A stretch of DNA of 64,000 nucleotides from Thermodesulfobacteriota bacterium (lineage in GTDB: Bacteria; Thermosulfidibacterota; Thermosulfidibacteria; Thermosulfidibacterales; B14-G1), in assembly GCA_024274915.1 (NCBI GenBank), contig JAJSAC010000068.1, forward strand, positions 1 through 64,000, written 5' to 3'. This document shows, in pieces, positions 1-9,292 of this stretch (position 1 is the first letter of the stretch; the number at the start of each line of letters is the position of its first letter). The translations under genes and the position numbers were made by a program. The notes under the pieces were generated by a model. The model did no database searches, was not told where the DNA came from, and was given only the letters and a program-made list of their open reading frames with translations.

Positions 1-233
1 CCCAAAATTCCCTTCCTGGTAAAGGCATCATGTTCAGAATCCTGGATTTTTTCTTTCCAACAAGTGAAAGGGCGGGGCATTCCTCCCTTGCCCATATAAT
101 CGCCCCATGGGAACCTGGCTTGTGATCGCCAAAGGATTTGGTTTTTCGTAACTTACTCCCTGGGGGGCTCAAATATGGATCTGCGGTCGGAACGCCTCGC
201 CCTGACCCATAAGGCCAAAACTGGGGGAAGTCC
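1..233. repeat. MITE-like element, copy 1 (left end cut by window edge); same outer ends and subterminal stem as copies 2 and 3 but a different core
   Basis: cccaaaattcccttcctggtaaagg...gttcagaatcctgga...aagtgaaagggcggggcattcctcccttgcccat ... cggaacgcctcgccct ... aactgggggaagtcc; aligns to 4121-4377 and 7111-7357 at both ends. Confidence 0.8.
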
Positions 234-324
234 TGTGAAAACACCCTTGATCCCATATAGTGCGGCTAAGTATAGGAATTTTGTGGGCTTGGTCTTGAGT
301 ATGGCATTTTTGTTTTGCAGGGGT

Positions 325-2265
325 CTATTTACCTTTTTTTGAAGCCTTTTTGAGGAGGACCTTGATCTCTTGGAGCATGGTGTCCAAGGTCTGAGGGGAG
401 ATGTCACCTCCGCCGTACTCCTTCCAGTAGTACAACTCCGCGGCTTTTTCGATTTTCTCTCCCAGGGCAGGGTTTTCTTGGCCGATTCTGTGGGCTATCT
501 CCAGCAGGGTTTCGCCAGGTTCTACGGAGAAACCCTGCTCTTGCAGGGTGTTGACCAGTTTCTCTCCCCAGGTATGGGGTCTCTTTTGCCACCAGGATAT
601 GAAGCGGTAGAGGAGGAAGAGAGAGACCCCTATGATAAGTATCAAGACGAAGGTGGCTTTAGAGGGAGGGGAGGTGGGCATGTGGGGTTTGGGGGATGGT
701 GAGAAGAGGGCCAAGGCCTTTTTGAGCAGCTGGGTCTGTCTTTCTATGTTGTAGCTGATGACCCAGTGGTACCACTGGAATCTTAGGTAGTCTAGCAATC
801 TTCCTACAGTCCCCAGCCTACTCATAGTCCTGGAGGCTCCAGGGGGAAGGGGAGGAGTAGGATCGAAGGGAACCCAGCCCTGGCCCTCTTTGTATACTTC
901 CACCCAGGTGTGGGCGTCGGAGTTTCGGACGATGAAATATTTGCCCAGCTGGTTCCACTCTCCACCGAGGAACCCTGCCACAATCCGGGCTGGTACTTCT
1001 CGGATTCTCAAAAGGAGAACCATGGAGGTGGCGAAATACTCGCAGTGGCCCTGGCCTTTGTTGAGGAGGAAGGAGACCACGGGGTAGGGTCCTTTTTTGC
1101 CAGGATGGAGGGAGTATTTGTGGTTGGTCCTCAGGTACCTCTCCACGGCCCTGGCCAGGACCAGGGAATCCCTTTCTTTAGGGGCGATGGAATGGGCCAG
1201 GGTTTGGAGGGCTCCTCTTACCCTTTGGGGGACCCGGAGAAAGATGTGGGGAGAGAGGATGGGAGGGTACGTCTTCACCAGGCTTGAGTGGACCGTATAG
1301 AAGACTCTCTGGGTTATGGGGGATGTGGTATGCAGGGTGTAACCCAGTCCCATGGCAACCTTGCTTCCCCGGATTGCCACTCTCCGGGGTATGCCCAGAG
1401 CAAAGAGGGTGTTGCCCTGATGGGGTTCTAGAAAGATCCTGTATACTACTTTCCTGCCCCCGGGGAGGGTGTGGGGGGTTGGCTTCTTTTTGATCCACGG
1501 CACCACCCATACACCGTGCTGGTACTCCACGTACACTTTCCCCCTCCAGTACAGCTTGTTCCGGGGTGGTCTGGGTCCCTCCAGCCATTCCACCCTCATG
1601 GCTACAGAGGGGTCTTCTTTTATGGTCTCCACGCTTCCCGGGGTGATGTTTTCCCCAAAGCCTGATTTGGCGGTTTTCCCTCCAGACCATCCTGGAGTGA
1701 AGGTGAAAGAGGGGCGAGGTAGTATGAGAAAGAAGATGACAGTGGAGGGAAGAAGGGCAAAGGACATGATCCCTCCCCACAGAAAGAGGGTTTGTGTTTC
1801 TTTGGAGGAGATGGTCTCCCTCTCTGTGGAGGCAAAGAGAAAAATGAGACCGGTTAGGAGAAGGAAGATGTTGGCTGCTAAGAGGAAGCCAAATTCCATT
1901 CCCCACCTCACCACGGCAGCTCCCGCCATAAGGAGGAGGGAGAGGAGGTAGAGCTGTAGATAGTCTCTCACCTTCTTGGTGGAGAGGAGCTTGGCTGAGA
2001 TGAGGATGAAGAGGATGCCCATGATACGGCTGAAAAAGAACTCCCATTGGATTCCCCAGAGGTTGAGGAGGATCAGGATCATTGCCACTGCGGTGACGAT
2101 GGAGTTGGGCAAAGGGGTGAGTCCCTTCTCGTCCATCCAGAGACTGATGACAAGGGAACCAAGGGTGAGGAGGGTATAGGATGGAGCTACCTCCCCCGCC
2201 ATGGATATGAGTCCCAAGACCAGGGATACAAAGAGGAGGTACCGGGCTATTTTGAGGGGTCCCAT
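325..2265 (-). CDS. TgpA-like transglutaminase-domain membrane protein (DUF3488/transglutaminase/DUF4129 type)
   Basis: Multiple N-terminal TM segments; GQGHCEYFATSMVLLLR...AHTWVEVY...GWVPFDPTPP transglutaminase core; followed on the same strand by DUF58 and MoxR genes. Confidence 0.9.
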   Translation of the reverse strand: MGPLKIARYLLFVSLVLGLISMAGEVAPSYTLLTLGSLVISLWMDEKGLTPLPNSIVTAVAMILILLNLWGIQWEFFFSRIMGILFILISAKLLSTKKVRDYLQLYLLSLLLMAGAAVVRWGMEFGFLLAANIFLLLTGLIFLFASTERETISSKETQTLFLWGGIMSFALLPSTVIFFLILPRPSFTFTPGWSGGKTAKSGFGENITPGSVETIKEDPSVAMRVEWLEGPRPPRNKLYWRGKVYVEYQHGVWVVPWIKKKPTPHTLPGGRKVVYRIFLEPHQGNTLFALGIPRRVAIRGSKVAMGLGYTLHTTSPITQRVFYTVHSSLVKTYPPILSPHIFLRVPQRVRGALQTLAHSIAPKERDSLVLARAVERYLRTNHKYSLHPGKKGPYPVVSFLLNKGQGHCEYFATSMVLLLRIREVPARIVAGFLGGEWNQLGKYFIVRNSDAHTWVEVYKEGQGWVPFDPTPPLPPGASRTMSRLGTVGRLLDYLRFQWYHWVISYNIERQTQLLKKALALFSPSPKPHMPTSPPSKATFVLILIIGVSLFLLYRFISWWQKRPHTWGEKLVNTLQEQGFSVEPGETLLEIAHRIGQENPALGEKIEKAAELYYWKEYGGGDISPQTLDTMLQEIKVLLKKASKKGK

Positions 2266-2275
2266 CTTCTCCCCC

Positions 2276-3151
2276 CTAAGCCAGGGCCAAGGCCTCCAGC
2301 AGGGTGCTGAGGTGTTTTTCTCCCCGGGCGGGTTTCAAGGTTTTGTCAGGCAGTATGAGCCCTACGGCCATGCCCCTCTTGGTGCTCTCCAAGATCAGAT
2401 AGGTGGCCCGGCCCAGCGCTTCTTCCCAGTCGCCTGCCCCTTTGTTTACCTGGACAATTAGCTTGTTTCCCTGGGCATTTGCCGTTTCCCGGATTATCAG
2501 CTCACCTTTTCGGGCTGTGGCTTTCCAGTCCATCCTCTTCAGGGAATCGCCTTCTTGGTAGGGCCTCAACTCCAGGATCTCGTCTCCCAATCCCCTGCTT
2601 TTACCAGGGGAGTATGGGCCTTCTCCTTCCCCTTCCCCTACTTTTAGGGGGGTGGGTATGGGTTTGGGGAAGACCAATAGTTCCTGGTTCACCTCTATTT
2701 TTCGGCTCCGGGTGAAGAAACCTAGGGGGAAAGCGGATACCACCTCTATGCTGGAAAGCTCTGCTTTACCCCTATGGGGAAAGGTTAGCCACACGGTGGT
2801 CTCTTCTTTTCCATGGTACCCCATAATGATGCCCTTCGCTTCCTGTCCTCGGATCCTGATGCCCACCAGAGTGGGGGGTAGAGGCCACCTCCGCCTCCTC
2901 AGGATCACCCTGAAAGGAGCGGGATGGGTTGCAAATATCTCTTGGGGGGGCGAAAGTTCCACCTTTAGCCCGGTGAGGTTGATTATAGAGGATATCCCCG
3001 AGACCATCATAAGGGCCAGCAAAGCGGACGAGAGTAGGTAGAGGAGGTTGTTACCCGTGTTGGCGGCTCCTAGGGCAATGATGATGGTGATCAGGATGTA
3101 AAGGTGTCCCCATCTCGTGATCTTTACCCGGTATCTTTTCTTGAATCTCAC
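2276..3151 (-). CDS. DUF58 domain-containing protein
   Basis: ELRPYQEGDSLKRMDWKATARKGELIIRE is a DUF58 signature; N-terminal TM pair. Confidence 0.9.
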   Translation of the reverse strand: MRFKKRYRVKITRWGHLYILITIIIALGAANTGNNLLYLLSSALLALMMVSGISSIINLTGLKVELSPPQEIFATHPAPFRVILRRRRWPLPPTLVGIRIRGQEAKGIIMGYHGKEETTVWLTFPHRGKAELSSIEVVSAFPLGFFTRSRKIEVNQELLVFPKPIPTPLKVGEGEGEGPYSPGKSRGLGDEILELRPYQEGDSLKRMDWKATARKGELIIRETANAQGNKLIVQVNKGAGDWEEALGRATYLILESTKRGMAVGLILPDKTLKPARGEKHLSTLLEALALA

Positions 3152-4077
3152 AGGGGTGCAGAAACAGAGGCCAGAAAGTTCAGCAGATATTCCAGCCTCT
3201 CCTCTTCCTTGTAATCTCCTGGGGGAGCGAGGCGGTGGAAGGCCACATAGGGAAAGGAGACCTTTACGTCTTCGGGTATGAGATAGTCTCTGTTTTCTAA
3301 ATAGGCCCGGGCCTGGGCCACCTTTTTCAGGGCAATGGCTCCTCTGGTGGACAGTCCAAAGCGGAAATGTTTTTTGTTTCGGGTAGTTTCTGTGATTTCC
3401 ATGATGTAGGCCAGAATCCTTGGAGGGACTTTCACCTCCGACACCTCTTTTTGGATTTCAAGGATCTCCTGGGTGTTGAGGAGAGAGGGCAATTCCTGGG
3501 CCATGTTGTAATGCCCATTGTGGGCGACAATCTCTGCTTCCAGGCTCCTTTCAGGGTATCCCATCTCCAGACGCACCATGAAGCGGTCTAGCTGGGATTC
3601 GGGTAGGGGGAAGGTGCCGTAAAGTTCCAGGGGGTTCTGGGTGGCAATGACGAAGAACGGGGTGGGAAGGGGGTAGGTGTCTCCGCCCACAGAGACTTTA
3701 CCTTCGCCCATGGCCTCTAGGAGGGCGCTCTGGGTTCTTGGGGTGGCCCGGTTTATCTCGTCGGCCAGAAGGATGTTGTGGAATACGGGGCCTGGCTTGA
3801 AGACGAATCTGCTTTCTTGGGCCAAGAAAACTTCGGTGCCTATCACGTCAGAGGGCATGAGGTCGTTGGTGAACTGGACCCTGGCAAAGGTACATCCCGT
3901 CACTTTGGCCAATGCCAGGGCTAGGGTGGTCTTTCCCGTTCCCGGTAGGTCTTCCAACAAGAGATGTCCGCCGGCCAACAGGGTGGCAATGGAGATCTGG
4001 ACCTCCCTTTCCTTTCCCCTGATAACGGAGGATACCAGATTTAGGGCTTTTGTCAGTCTCTCCCTCATGAGACGCAT
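3148..4077 (-). CDS. MoxR family AAA+ ATPase (start placed at internal ATG; ORF track extends to TTG at 4134)
   Basis: LLEDLPGTGKTTLALALAK Walker A, LLADEINRATPRTQSALLEAM Walker B, VIATQNP; ATG at 4075-4077 precedes MRLMRERLTKAL. Confidence 0.9.
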   Translation of the reverse strand: MRLMRERLTKALNLVSSVIRGKEREVQISIATLLAGGHLLLEDLPGTGKTTLALALAKVTGCTFARVQFTNDLMPSDVIGTEVFLAQESRFVFKPGPVFHNILLADEINRATPRTQSALLEAMGEGKVSVGGDTYPLPTPFFVIATQNPLELYGTFPLPESQLDRFMVRLEMGYPERSLEAEIVAHNGHYNMAQELPSLLNTQEILEIQKEVSEVKVPPRILAYIMEITETTRNKKHFRFGLSTRGAIALKKVAQARAYLENRDYLIPEDVKVSFPYVAFHRLAPPGDYKEEERLEYLLNFLASVSAPL

Positions 4078-4120
4078 AGAATAAACGGAAGAATCGGGGC
4101 TTTCAATGGTGGGGATGGCC

Positions 4121-4377
4121 AGGAGTTCCCCCAAAAATCCCTTCTTGGTGAAGGTATGGCGTTCAGAACCCTAGACTGTACCTTTCAGATAAGTGAAAGG
4201 GCGGGGCATTCCTCCCTTGCCCATGGCTGATAGCTGATGGCTCATGGCTCATGGCTCATGGCTGATAGCAACTGTGAGCTATGAACCATGAACTACGAGC
4301 TATGAACTATGAGCTATTCATCTCTGCGCTCGGAACGCCCCGCCCTGCCATCTGAGGGTAGAACTGGGGGAAGTCCT
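4121..4377. mobile_element. MITE-like element, copy 2
   Basis: 13-bp imperfect TIR AGGAGTTCCCCCA / TGGGGGAAGTCCT; subterminal stem AGGGCGGGGCATTCC (4198-4212) / GGAACGCCCCGCCCT (4332-4346); 12-bp direct repeat GTGGGGATGGCC at 4109-4120 and 4378-4389. Confidence 0.85.
4223..4317. repeat. Heptanucleotide tandem arrays inside MITE copy 2
   Basis: Arm 1 (4223-4269) six ATRGCTS heptads plus ATAGC; arm 2 (4276-4317) exactly six GARCYAY-type heptads: GAGCTAT GAACCAT GAACTAC GAGCTAT GAACTAT GAGCTAT. Confidence 0.9.
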
Positions 4378-4452
4378 GTGGGGATGGCCCCTCTCGTTGA
4401 AAGCTTTATCCAATGGTGTTAAGCAAGACTAAAAAAGCCAGGAGGTGGGGGC

Positions 4453-5322
4453 ATGAATGTGGACGATATCAAGACCATTGGGGTGGTGGGTGCCGGTACC
4501 ATGGGGTCGGGCATTGCCCAGGTGGCGGCTGCGTCGGGATTCGGGGTGATTCTCAGGGACGTGTCTGAGGCCGCTCTAGATAGGGGTTTCAAGATCATTG
4601 AGCGGAGCCTGGCCAGGCTGACCAAAAAGGGTAAGATCTCTGAAGGGGAGGCCCAGGAGATCCTGGGACGTATCACCAAGACCTTGGAGCTCAAAGACAT
4701 GGCAGAGGTCGACTTGGTGATAGAGGCGGCCTTTGAGAAGATGGAGGTGAAGAAGGAGCTCTTTGGTGAGCTGGATGGGATCTGTCGCCCTGAGGTGGTT
4801 TTGGCTTCCAACACCTCCAGTCTTTCCATAACGGAGATTGCCGCTGCCACTTCCCGTCCCGATAAGGTGGTGGGCATGCACTTCTTTAATCCTGTTCCCG
4901 TGTTGCCCTTGGTGGAGATTGTCCAGGGCCTCACCACCTCTGACGAGACGGTGGAGCTGGCCTATGAGGTGGCCAAAAGGCTGGGTAAGTCTCCCATCAA
5001 GACCAAGGACCAGCCAGGCTTTATTGTGAACCGCGTTTTGGTGCCCTACATGAACGAGGCGGCCTTTGCTTACATGGAGGGTGTGGGTACGGCCGAGGAG
5101 ATAGATCAGGCCATGAAGTGGGGGGCCAATATGCCCATCGGTCCCTTGGCCCTGTTGGACCTGGTGGGTATCGATGTGGCCCTGGACGTTTTGGAGGTTC
5201 TTTATAGGGAGTTTGGCGATCCCAAGTTCAGGCCTGCACCCATTTTGAGGCAGATGGTTCGAGCGGGCCATCTGGGAAGGAAGACGGGCAAAGGCTTCTT
5301 CGATTATACCGAGAAAGTTTGA
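4453..5322 (+). CDS. 3-hydroxyacyl-CoA (3-hydroxybutyryl-CoA) dehydrogenase
   Basis: GVVGAGTMGSGIAQVAAASGF; ASNTSSLSITEIA; GMHFFNPVPVLPLVEIV; KDQPGFIVNR. Confidence 0.95.
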   Translation: MNVDDIKTIGVVGAGTMGSGIAQVAAASGFGVILRDVSEAALDRGFKIIERSLARLTKKGKISEGEAQEILGRITKTLELKDMAEVDLVIEAAFEKMEVKKELFGELDGICRPEVVLASNTSSLSITEIAAATSRPDKVVGMHFFNPVPVLPLVEIVQGLTTSDETVELAYEVAKRLGKSPIKTKDQPGFIVNRVLVPYMNEAAFAYMEGVGTAEEIDQAMKWGANMPIGPLALLDLVGIDVALDVLEVLYREFGDPKFRPAPILRQMVRAGHLGRKTGKGFFDYTEKV

Positions 5323-5333
5323 GGAGGTGAGTC

Positions 5334-6116
5334 ATGGCTTACGAAACCTTGCTCTATGAAGTGAAGGAAGGGATAGCCTATGTCACCATTAACAGGCCCA
5401 AGGTTCTTAATGCCCTCGACGACACTGTTATCAATGAGTTGGGCCAGGTCTTTGCTGCCATCAAAGACGACTCCCAGGTGAAGGCCGTCATACTCACAGG
5501 GTCCGGGGAAAAGGCCTTCGTGGCAGGGGCCGACATCACCCAGTTGGTGGAGCTCAACACCCTGACTGGAAAGGTCTTTGCTGAAAAAGGTCAGGCCGTT
5601 TTCAATCTCATTGAGAACCTGGGTAAGCCCGTCATCGCTGCCATTAACGGCTTTGCCCTGGGGGGTGGATGTGAGCTGGCCATGGCCTGCACCTTGAGGG
5701 TGGCTTCTACCAGGGCTAAGCTAGGCCAGCCGGAAGTGAACCTGGGCATCATCCCTGGCTATGGTGGTACCCAGAGGCTCCCCAGGTTGGTGGGGAAGGG
5801 CCGGGCCATGGAACTGGTCCTCACGGGGCGCATGGTGGACGCCCAAGAGGCCTTCCAGATGGGTCTGGTGAATAAGGTCGTGGAACCCGAGAAGCTCATG
5901 GAGGAAGCCGAGGCCCTGGCCAGGACCATCATGGGCAAGGGACCTGTGGCGGTGAAACTGGCCATGGAGGCTGTCAATCGGGGCTTGGAGGTCAGCCTGG
6001 AAGAGGGTTTGCGCATTGAGGCTGACCTCTTTGGTGTGTGTTGCTCTACCGAAGACAAAGTGGAAGGCACCAAGGCCTTTCTGGAGAAGAGAAAGGCCGG
6101 TTTCCAAGGTAAGTGA
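5334..6116 (+). CDS. Enoyl-CoA hydratase/isomerase family protein
   Basis: TINRPKVLNALD...GEKAFVAGADI...AINGFALGGGCELAMACTLRVAS...LGIIPGYGGTQRL. Confidence 0.95.
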   Translation: MAYETLLYEVKEGIAYVTINRPKVLNALDDTVINELGQVFAAIKDDSQVKAVILTGSGEKAFVAGADITQLVELNTLTGKVFAEKGQAVFNLIENLGKPVIAAINGFALGGGCELAMACTLRVASTRAKLGQPEVNLGIIPGYGGTQRLPRLVGKGRAMELVLTGRMVDAQEAFQMGLVNKVVEPEKLMEEAEALARTIMGKGPVAVKLAMEAVNRGLEVSLEEGLRIEADLFGVCCSTEDKVEGTKAFLEKRKAGFQGK

Positions 6117-6129
6117 CGTTGCATTAGGG

Positions 6130-6157
6130 GGGGCCGGGGTGTCGTCTCTCCGGCCCC
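6130..6157. terminator. Hairpin between convergent genes (terminator-like)
   Basis: GGGGCCGG (6130-6137) / CCGGCCCC (6150-6157). Confidence 0.5.
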
Positions 6158-6194
6158 ACCCGGATGGGTTATCAAAGGGCTTAAAATCTTGTTC

Positions 6195-7040
6195 TCAGGT
6201 TTTTTCGATGGAGTCCTCCAGGTCTGGGTAGAGCTTTCTCATGCACTCCGGGCAGATGCTGTGGCTAAGGACGGCTTCTGTGTGGCTTTTGATGTAGTTC
6301 TCTAACTGGATCCACCGCCCCTGGTCGTCTCGAATCTTCTTACAATTGGCGCATATGGGGAGAAAACCGCTGAGGGCCTTGGTGAGGGCCTCTTCTAGCT
6401 TCCTTTGGAGAACTTCTTTCTCTTTTTGGGCCTGGAGCCATTGGGATATGTCCTTGAAGTTTTCTACTATCCCGAGGAGCTGCCCATCCAACCCCTTGAA
6501 GGGCACCGCCGTGATGATGCAGGGGATTTTGGTACCGTCCTTCGCTTCCTTCTCTACGCTACGCTCCACTCGCTCCTTCCCCTTTAGGATCTGGAGGAGG
6601 GGACAGTCTGGGGTGTGACACTCGGGACCATGGAACACTTCGTAGCATTTTTTACCGATGGAGTCTTTCTTGCTCACTCCTGACATCTTAGTGAAGGTGT
6701 CGTTGACCCGAAGGACGTTGTACTCTCTGTCTATGACCCTCATCCCGTCAGCAGCGGTGTTGAAAATCTGCTCCAGCTCCTTATAGGCCAGTTTTGCCTT
6801 TTCTTCGGCCTCTCTCCGCTGATTGATGATGGATTGAGCGTAGGCGCCGAAGGCTACCAGCAGGGAGACTATCAATATGCGCATCCAGGTTTCATGGGCG
6901 TTGGGATGAAGGACCTGAGTTAGAAAGGGTCCCTTCTGAAAAACTATGGAATGGATGGCGGCTTCAAAGAACCAGAAGGACATGCCCAGGCCCATTCCAA
7001 GGAGGGTTATCCTGTTTCGTTGGATGATACTTTTGGGCAC
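6195..7040 (-). CDS. Membrane-anchored PAS-domain protein with C-terminal CxxC/CxxC motif, no kinase domain
   Basis: N-terminal TM segments; ELEQIFNTAADGMRVIDREYNVLRVNDTF PAS start; ICANCKKIRDDQGRWIQLENYI...SHSICPECMRKLYP. Confidence 0.75.
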   Translation of the reverse strand: MPKSIIQRNRITLLGMGLGMSFWFFEAAIHSIVFQKGPFLTQVLHPNAHETWMRILIVSLLVAFGAYAQSIINQRREAEEKAKLAYKELEQIFNTAADGMRVIDREYNVLRVNDTFTKMSGVSKKDSIGKKCYEVFHGPECHTPDCPLLQILKGKERVERSVEKEAKDGTKIPCIITAVPFKGLDGQLLGIVENFKDISQWLQAQKEKEVLQRKLEEALTKALSGFLPICANCKKIRDDQGRWIQLENYIKSHTEAVLSHSICPECMRKLYPDLEDSIEKT

Positions 7041-7110
7041 CTTCCCTTCTCCGTTTTATAATCATAAATACAGTATCAAACTTACCTCAGAAAGCAATTT
7101 TTAATTTGCT

Positions 7111-7357
7111 GGACTTCCCCCAAAAATCCCTTCTTGGTGAAGGTATGGTGTTCAGAATCCTAGACTTTACCTTTCAGATAAGTGAAAGGGCGGGGCATTC
7201 CTTCCTTGCCCATGGCTGATAGCTGATGGCTGATGGCTCATGGCTGATAGCAACTGTGAGCTATGAACCATGAACTACGAGCTATGAACTATGAGCTATC
7301 ATCTCTGCGCTCGGAACGCCCCGCCCTGCCATCTGAGGGTAGAACTGGGGGAAGTCT
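7111..7357. mobile_element. MITE-like element, copy 3
   Basis: Perfect 11-bp TIR GACTTCCCCCA (7112-7122) / TGGGGGAAGTC (7346-7356); same subterminal stem; 8-bp direct repeat TTAATTTG at 7101-7108 and 7359-7366. Confidence 0.85.
7212..7299. repeat. Heptanucleotide tandem arrays inside MITE copy 3
   Basis: Arm 1 (7212-7251) has one heptad fewer than copy 2; arm 2 (7258-7299) six heptads, identical to copy 2. Confidence 0.9.
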
Positions 7358-7464
7358 GTTAATTTGTAGTTTTTTTATATCCTATGAGGCAAAGGGATCG
7401 CTGGCATCCGGCCGGGAGGGGTATTAGATTAACTTTGTGAATAAAGTATCTAGGAGGGTGGATC

Positions 7465-7932
7465 ATGTTCAGGAAGATCATGGTAGCCACTGGGGGGTCT
7501 CTTTGGTCCACGAGGGCAGTGGAGTATGCCGCAGATTTAGCCAGGGAACTGGATGCCCAGCTCTGTATTCTTCACGTGGTCACTTCACCGTCTCTCATCA
7601 GTGAGTTGTTGGCGTCGGTTCCCTTTGACAAGGAGTTGAAAGAGAAGGGAGAACGGGTGCTGGAAGATGCCGCCGTTTTGGCCAGAGGCAAAGGGGTGGG
7701 GTGCAAGACCCTTCTGAAGACCGGTTCTGTTGCTGAAAACATCGTCATAGCCGCTGCCGAGGAGGGAGCAGACCTTCTGGTCCTGGGTTCCAGGGGTGAT
7801 AAAGGGCTGAGCCGGGGTGGCTTGGGGAGTATTGCTTCTAAGGTGGCAGCTACGGCCCCATGTCCCGTGTTAATCATGAAAGATACCTCCTTCCTCGAGG
7901 AACTTCTCAAGAAGGGCGCCTTAGTGAAGTAG
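7465..7932 (+). CDS. Universal stress protein (UspA family)
   Basis: ILHVV, ADLLVLGSRGDKGLSRGGLGSIASKVAATAPCPVLIMK. Confidence 0.9.
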   Translation: MFRKIMVATGGSLWSTRAVEYAADLARELDAQLCILHVVTSPSLISELLASVPFDKELKEKGERVLEDAAVLARGKGVGCKTLLKTGSVAENIVIAAAEEGADLLVLGSRGDKGLSRGGLGSIASKVAATAPCPVLIMKDTSFLEELLKKGALVK

Positions 7933-8119
7933 AGTAGGGTTCTATTCCAATGGGCAAAGGGTGGACTTTTCCCCCTGTTCTGTTGCACTTTTGGTTCTGG
8001 GGGGCATGGTAATACCACCTTACTTTTTACTTAAATTTCGCTGGACTGCGCCTAGCTTATTGACAGGGAAACTTTCTTTGTTTAATGGTAAGACCAATAT
8101 ACCTAAGGGGAGGTGCTTT

Positions 8120-9292
8120 ATGAAGAGGCGTCTTTTAAAAAACAGTTTTTCTATGGTCCTGGCGCTCGTCCTTTTCCTCTTTTTCATGACGCCTGCCCAT
8201 GCTGGCAAAAAGGTGAGAACCAAACTGGGAAAAGACGAGCGCCACGAATTGTGGAAAAACAAGAAGTGGACCACCTCCAACAAAAAGTACCGCTGGAGGA
8301 TGGTGACCACCTGGACCCCTGGACTTCTCTTCTACGACTACGCCGTCCATTTTGCCGACTCGGTTAGGGCGGCCAGCGGGGGAAGACTGGACATCACCGT
8401 ATATCCAGCCGGTGCCATTGTGCCTGCCATGGAGACCTTCAGCGCTGTGAGTAAGGGGGTGGTGGAGGCGGGGCATGCCTGGTCTGGGTACTGGAAGGGA
8501 AAGAATGAAGCCTTTGTTGCCTTTGCGTCCGTGCCTTACGGTTTGGACATTGAAGGCTACAACATCTGGCTCTTTGCTAGGGGTGGCATGAAGATGTGGA
8601 ACGATCTCTATGCTCCCTACAATCTGGTGGTCTTCCCCGGAGGTAATGGTGGTCAGGAGATGGGCCTTTTCTCCAACAAGAAGGCCACCAAGATGGAGGA
8701 TTTCAGGGGCATGAGGGTGAGGACCGTGGGGTGGTACATGGATATCCTCACCCGCCTGGGCGTCTCTGTGAGTCCACTGCCTGGAGGTGAGGTCTATTTG
8801 GCCCTGGAGAGGGGCGTGATTGACTCGGCTGAGTTTTCTACCCCTGCCATTGATTATCCCATGGGTTTCCAGGAGATCACCAAGTATGTGATCGAGCCTG
8901 GTGTCCATCAGCCGGCTGTTCAGTGTGAGATCATGATCAATAAGAAGGCCTATGAGAGCCTCCCTGAGGATCTCAAGGCCATCATCCAGATCGCTGCCAT
9001 GGAAACCCAGCTCTGGTCTGAGGCATGGACAGAGAACCTCAACGCCAAGGCCGTTCAACTCTTCCAGAAGGAGGGAATTCAGTTTGTGAGAATGGATGAT
9101 AAGACCATCATTCAGTTTGCCAAGACCGCCTTTAAGTATATGGACGAGCTGGCTGCCAAGTATCCCGATGTGAAGAAGGTTCTGGACTCCCAGGAGCAGT
9201 TCAAGAGGGACTTTGCGCCCTGGAGAGAGATGCGCGGCGGGGTCACCCCTTGGCCCAGGGAGATGTTCCTTAAGGGTAAGCTCTACCAGTAA
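8120..9292 (+). CDS. TRAP transporter substrate-binding protein (DctP family)
   Basis: ATG at 8120 after aggggaggtg; signal peptide MKRRLLKNSFSMVLALVLFLFFMTPAHA; FRGMRVRTVGWYMDILTRLGVSVSPLPGGEVYLALERGVIDSAEF. Confidence 0.9.
   Translation: MKRRLLKNSFSMVLALVLFLFFMTPAHAGKKVRTKLGKDERHELWKNKKWTTSNKKYRWRMVTTWTPGLLFYDYAVHFADSVRAASGGRLDITVYPAGAIVPAMETFSAVSKGVVEAGHAWSGYWKGKNEAFVAFASVPYGLDIEGYNIWLFARGGMKMWNDLYAPYNLVVFPGGNGGQEMGLFSNKKATKMEDFRGMRVRTVGWYMDILTRLGVSVSPLPGGEVYLALERGVIDSAEFSTPAIDYPMGFQEITKYVIEPGVHQPAVQCEIMINKKAYESLPEDLKAIIQIAAMETQLWSEAWTENLNAKAVQLFQKEGIQFVRMDDKTIIQFAKTAFKYMDELAAKYPDVKKVLDSQEQFKRDFAPWREMRGGVTPWPREMFLKGKLYQ

Follow-up and report, generated by a model that had tools for sequence, protein, structure and literature searches.

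Putatively slippage-prone heptanucleotide tracts shared by the hairpin core of a high-copy MITE and the cobalamin riboswitches of one Thermodesulfobacteriota genome

The window analyzed here is the whole 64,000-nt stretch at the start of contig JAJSAC010000068.1, and its genome is labeled G000 below. The window carries three copies of one repeated element. Copy 2 is bordered by the genes for a MoxR-type ATPase (minus strand, listed as 3148–4134) and a 3-hydroxyacyl-CoA dehydrogenase (4453–5322); the true start of the former gene is probably further inside than position 4134. Copy 3 likewise sits between two divergent genes, which encode a PAS-domain protein and a universal stress protein. Copy 1 has the same ends and flanks as the rest of the family and a different core. 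The features are as follows.

1–236, plus strand: MITE copy 1, start lost at the contig edge; its core (about 100–185) is an unrelated hairpin without heptads
4078–4106, minus strand: predicted promoter of the MoxR-type ATPase gene, TTGAAA-17-TATTCT, beginning 14 nt beyond the left end of copy 2
4110–4119: left target-site duplication of copy 2, TGGGGATGGC, 10 bp
4120–4378, plus strand: MITE copy 2, complete, C-AGGAGTTCCCCC ... GGGGGAAGTCCT-G, delimited by its terminal inverted repeats and the family alignment
4198–4212, plus strand: internal G+C-rich inverted repeat of copy 2, left side, AGGGCGGGGCATTCC
4223–4269, plus strand: left heptad arm of copy 2, 6.7 units of ATRGCTS
4273–4321, plus strand: right heptad arm of copy 2, 7 units of the SARCYAT type (GAGCTAT, GAACCAT, GAACTAC and others)
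4332–4346, plus strand: internal G+C-rich inverted repeat of copy 2, right side, GGAACGCCCCGCCCT
4379–4388: right target-site duplication of copy 2, TGGGGATGGC, 10 bp
7110–7358, plus strand: MITE copy 3, complete, with a heptad core (left arm 7212–7251, right arm 7255–7302)

The 10-bp target duplication of copy 2 is perfect. The left arm of this copy (47 nt) reads ATGGCTG-ATAGCTG-ATGGCTC-ATGGCTC-ATGGCTC-ATGGCTG-ATAGC, and that of copy 3 measures 40 nt. Copies 2 and 3 differ in their right arms by a single inserted base, and the last right unit of copy 2 has diverged to TATTCAT. TRF reported 7-nt arrays at 4222–4263 and 4270–4317 in copy 2 and at 7212–7248 and 7252–7299 in copy 3, and no other 7-nt array in the 64-kb window. 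A 20-nt right-arm pattern (up to 3 mismatches) matched six times in the window vs. none in 100 shuffles. The first-pass annotation had placed heptad arrays on opposite hairpin arms of a MITE-like element, with exactly one more left heptad in copy 2 than in copy 3. The former is borne out, and the two left-arm lengths make the latter exact.

The family comprises roughly 60–80 copies in this genome. Forty-three complete copies were recovered from the fetched stretches, and further copies are truncated. About 40 of the 43 can be called typical, because L044 and L075 (partly replaced by unrelated sequence) and L079 (joined across a flanking tRNA gene) are atypical. A DNA search of the genome's own assembly returned 44 matching places from 40 scored candidates (full-score places), and a 12-nt end motif occurred 180 times vs. 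51 times for its reversed control, which is ~130 above control. Many contigs of this genome end within the MITE, which indicated that the repeat is a main cause of assembly breaks and that the copy number is a lower bound.

All 43 complete copies share the ends CAGGACTTCCCCC and GGGGGAAGTCCTG as terminal inverted repeats, and insertion left target duplications of 8–10 bp. An exact duplication of at least 8 bp was present in 20 of 40 testable copies, compared with a mean of 0.5 and a maximum of 3 in any of 200 runs with shuffled flanks. Typical copies are 193–257 bp long, and the recurring lengths (193, 214, 221, 228, 235, 242, and 249) form a 7-nt ladder, all being 4 mod 7. The element is non-coding, since the period of 7 places stop codons in every frame, as read from the sequence. 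The left-flank and right-flank sequence types occur in many combinations, and an unrelated, heptad-free core with the same flanks was found in L056, L058, L073, and copy 1 of the window, combined with three different left types. This indicated that the copies exchange segments. The inverted ends, the target duplications, the 7-nt ladder, and the segment exchange therefore identify a short, non-coding, multi-copy MITE.

An autonomous insertion sequence as the source of the family was looked for among PF01609 and IS256-type transposases: a PF01609 search of the genome's own, fragmented assembly gave no match, and the one IS256-type gene (contig C40) lacks matching ends. An Rfam search of window positions 1–9000 for a known RNA family yielded no match over the MITE copies. 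Exact MITE sequence gave 0 matches in other species in the genome contig collection, and in a search of 98 genomes the weak matches outside the own species were confined to the heptad part.

Many copies lie close to predicted promoters. Among the right flanks, 33 of 61 have TTGA starting 11–15 nt outside the end sequence AAGTCCT; among the left flanks the count is 14 of 60, with 0–3, typically about 1, in each of the farther bins of equal width. When the flanks were aligned on TTGA, −10-like hexamers peaked at spacers of 17 and 18 (19/47). The target duplication thus ends 2–4 bp before the putative −35 box, and the insertion site is ~13 nt upstream of predicted sigma-70 −35 boxes (e.g., window 4078–4106, L036, L053, L070, L079, and L080). 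It is hard to attribute this spacing peak to survival alone, which suggested promoter-guided insertion, although selection on promoter-adjacent copies may also play a part. To our knowledge, promoter-proximal targeting with such precision would be unusual among bacterial elements. In L079 (contig C68), the copy immediately precedes a tRNA gene's promoter; the gene and its CAT anticodon were read from the sequence.

The tracts have the properties of STRRs, namely tandem 7-nt direct units in variable copy number. Across 52 parsed cores, unit number ranges over 1.7–6.7 on the left arm and 1.9–8.9 on the right, and the commonest left/right classes are 4.7/6.9 and 5.7/6.9. These counts, together with the ladder of lengths, agree with the earlier expectation that heptad number varies in whole units. 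The two arms vary independently: their unit numbers were uncorrelated (Spearman 0.19, p 0.18, 52 cores). Independent variation of this kind is one of the outcomes that the first-pass annotation had named as refuting its reading.

The predicted hairpin is strong, as the first-pass annotation had anticipated for one strand, and it is present on both (−120.9 kcal/mol with z −8.0, and −122.3 kcal/mol with z −8.8). Of the 30 distinct heptad cores, 25 folded slightly better as the plus strand (−34.0 vs. −31.4 kcal/mol), a weak signal because the cores share ancestry. The 30 distinct arm pairs folded with a mean of −34.0 kcal/mol and recombined arms with −33.7 (s.d. 0.3), and 39 of 200 shuffles were at least as stable as the true combinations. 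In the best register, the same 30 cores gave 670 Watson–Crick pairs, 66 G-U pairs, and 74 A-C mismatches, which would be G-U in the opposite strand alone, with a further 88 mismatches of other types. The arm differences had been described as largely G-U compatible and the arms as a co-evolving RNA pair; the first description is wrong, the second is not supported, and the wobble types favored neither strand. Across arm-length correlation, arm shuffling, and wobble-type counts, no matched changes preserving pairing were seen in the MITE arms, and nothing pointed to a match between particular arms. The limited heptad vocabulary that both arms share accounts for the hairpin.

On contigs C1–C33 of this genome, all listed heptad arrays but one were in the MITE. 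The exceptional array was within a cobalamin riboswitch (RF00174, 88.2 bits), where the conserved segments CCACUG and GGGAAGG directly flank the heptads. Three cobalamin riboswitches occur in the genome (RF00174, 84–88 bits), and in all of them the heptads fill both arms of the apical stem.

G000 C29:10379–10659: cobalamin riboswitch L222, heptad-filled apical stem
G000 C37:24095–23855: cobalamin riboswitch L223, heptad-filled apical stem
G000 C37:31817–31564: cobalamin riboswitch L224, heptad-filled apical stem

Outside the MITE, heptads were found only in these riboswitches (array check on contigs C1–C33), which are known structured RNAs with heptads in a stem; the MITE copies in window 1–9000 match no such RNA in Rfam. 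One riboswitch arm shares a 32-nt exact match with a MITE arm. Among relatives in the same order, a plain short hairpin occupies the riboswitch site in G001, G003, G005, and one of two riboswitches in G002, and heptad-type stems were present in two of two in G004 and one of two in G002. A search for the MITE body in G002 gave no match, and G004 had a single weak match covering heptads only (query 112–139). Therefore, the riboswitch heptads are independent of this MITE. At each of the three riboswitches of G000, a MITE copy was observed 52–65 bp upstream of the aptamer.

The heptads are widely dispersed in other genomes, as STRR units are. The pattern ATRGCTSATRGCTSATRGCTSATRGC occurs exactly in at least 113 stretches or contigs of the species-level genome collection. 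According to the organism names in the record titles, these belong to Cyanobacteria, Pseudomonadota, Bacteroidota, Chloroflexota, Planctomycetota, Acidobacteriota, Gemmatimonadota, Omnitrophota, Spirochaetota, Actinomycetota, and others. With one mismatch allowed, a scan of 386 sampled genomes found it in 17 and its reversed control in 0. Single arrays predominate; in about 11 of 102 array groups, the two orientations occur near each other. No Rfam match overlapped 18 heptad loci elsewhere, and in the other heptad-bearing genomes none of 18 cobalamin riboswitches and none of 7 RNase P RNAs contained heptads. The riboswitch use is thus, in the present sample, particular to this family. Heptads outside the element, a second refuting outcome named by the first-pass annotation, were thus seen in the riboswitches and in many phyla elsewhere, although nearly all own-genome arrays inspected do lie in the MITE.

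Here, the explanation we prefer, with a probability of roughly 0.7, is that two slippage-prone heptad tracts fill the variable end of the MITE hairpin as tolerated filler, with no evidence of selection for a specific heptad pairing or for a MITE RNA. The MITE would be a short non-coding relic mobilized by a cut-and-paste transposase that is apparently no longer present. Inverted tracts of ATRGCTS, a repeat common across bacteria as presumably slippage-prone tandem arrays, and of its near-complement fill the apical part of the long hairpin. Each tract gains and loses whole 7-nt units independently, most likely via replication slippage, as the 7-nt ladder suggests, and the copies exchange segments, giving mosaic cores and ends. 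Because the layout is inverted, a hairpin forms at any unit number, so changes in length would be tolerated. The same heptad repeat has filled the equivalent apical stem of the three own cobalamin riboswitches and of some in relatives; being in both MITE and riboswitch tips, the heptads seem to behave as tolerated stem filler in hairpin tips. Two observations count against this explanation: an autonomous transposase with these ends was not found by the PF01609 search or in the one IS256-type gene, and the plus-strand fold advantage would not be predicted without any RNA, although the cores that show it are not independent.

If there were such an RNA, the MITE would be transcribed and its heptad arms would be a selected stem of a regulatory or stabilizing RNA. 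We consider this improbable. The folds are strong on both strands and slightly better on the plus strand, and in the cobalamin riboswitches these heptads do build a genuine RNA stem; however, the arm lengths are uncorrelated, shuffled arms pair equally well, the wobble-type differences show no strand preference, and many copies are upstream of the nearest predicted promoter, not inside its transcript. A different role was proposed for the TAACTGA direct repeats of Beggiatoaceae, namely binding of a nucleoid or translation factor (PMC4679880), and by analogy the MITE could spread binding sites for a protein. The unit length is the same, TAACTGA differs from TAGCTGA by one base (PMC4679880), and the copies adjoin promoters. 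Still, a unit number ranging from <2 to ~9, copies without any heptads, and the lack of a known binding protein make this a very remote prospect.

The heptad hairpin could also be a self-spreading module that enters hairpin tips in the MITE and the riboswitches, either through a dedicated enzyme or by template switching. This would explain why two unrelated structured hosts in one genome have heptads at an equivalent position, the hairpin tip, and it would also account for the 32-nt match and the relatives with riboswitch heptads in which the MITE body was not detected. However, shared stretches can arise by chance from so limited a vocabulary, no ends, duplication, or enzyme were seen for such a module, and in other genomes that bear heptads, none were present in the 18 cobalamin riboswitches or in the RNase P RNAs. 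Self-spreading is accordingly hard to credit. A broader proposal is somewhat less doubtful but still unlikely: that the heptad hairpin is a transferable module for stem extension that has repeatedly entered the hairpin tips of unrelated structured hosts, here cobalamin riboswitches and a promoter-targeting MITE, a simple repeat thereby reshaping regulatory RNAs outside cyanobacteria.

The closest precedent is found in the cyanobacterial heptad stems of RNase P RNA and the trnL intron. STRRs were reportedly described in cyanobacterial RNase P RNA by Vioque in 1997 (cited in PMC2858038). In P6b of the Nostoc trnL(UAA) intron, two heptad classes (TDNGATT and NNTGAGT) take turns in building the stem, which gains or loses units on a single side or on both (PMC4476775). 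P6b, like the MITE, has 7-nt repeats on both hairpin arms. The Mrazek survey, as summarized in PMC4679880, found that among long simple repeats heptanucleotides are the commonest in most genomes and tied this to polymerase slippage. The Beggiatoaceae repeats and such simple repeats resemble the present ones in being 7-nt tandem units, mostly intergenic and patchy over phyla, but they are mostly single arrays upstream of start codons, whereas those described here are inverted pairs within an element. The cyanobacterial stems belong to single functional RNAs and use other units; here the heptad stems are in a high-copy MITE and, separately, in a cobalamin riboswitch, and the host lineage, as far as the relatives show, is not cyanobacterial. 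Taken together, the trnL P6b stem, the RNase P STRRs, and the Mrazek survey make slippage-prone heptads filling tolerant hairpin tips the best-supported view.

Among MITEs, Chunjie (Geobacter uraniireducens) and QMITE2 (Coxiella) are comparable: they too measure about 200–250 bp, occur in dozens of copies, have inverted ends and target duplications, fold stably, and vary in size (PMC10969869). Unlike in these families, size here varies mainly by whole core heptads, and insertion is focused just upstream of −35 boxes. A literature search of open papers found no heptad-bearing MITE or riboswitch. An architecture known from cyanobacterial RNase P RNA and trnL introns is now seen in a high-copy MITE and in cobalamin riboswitches of another lineage, which points to hairpin tips as general sinks of period-7 repeats. 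The dozens of copies per genome, and the relatives with either short or heptad-filled riboswitch stems, offer a natural experiment on how such stems grow and on any effect they have on riboswitch function.

As in the cyanobacterial structured RNAs, length changes by whole units on one or both sides, and one stem type can replace another. Between variants of the heptad-free hairpin core, a GCCCC/GGGGGC stem is exchanged for GGCGC/GCGCC, which resembles a paired change among four sequences only.
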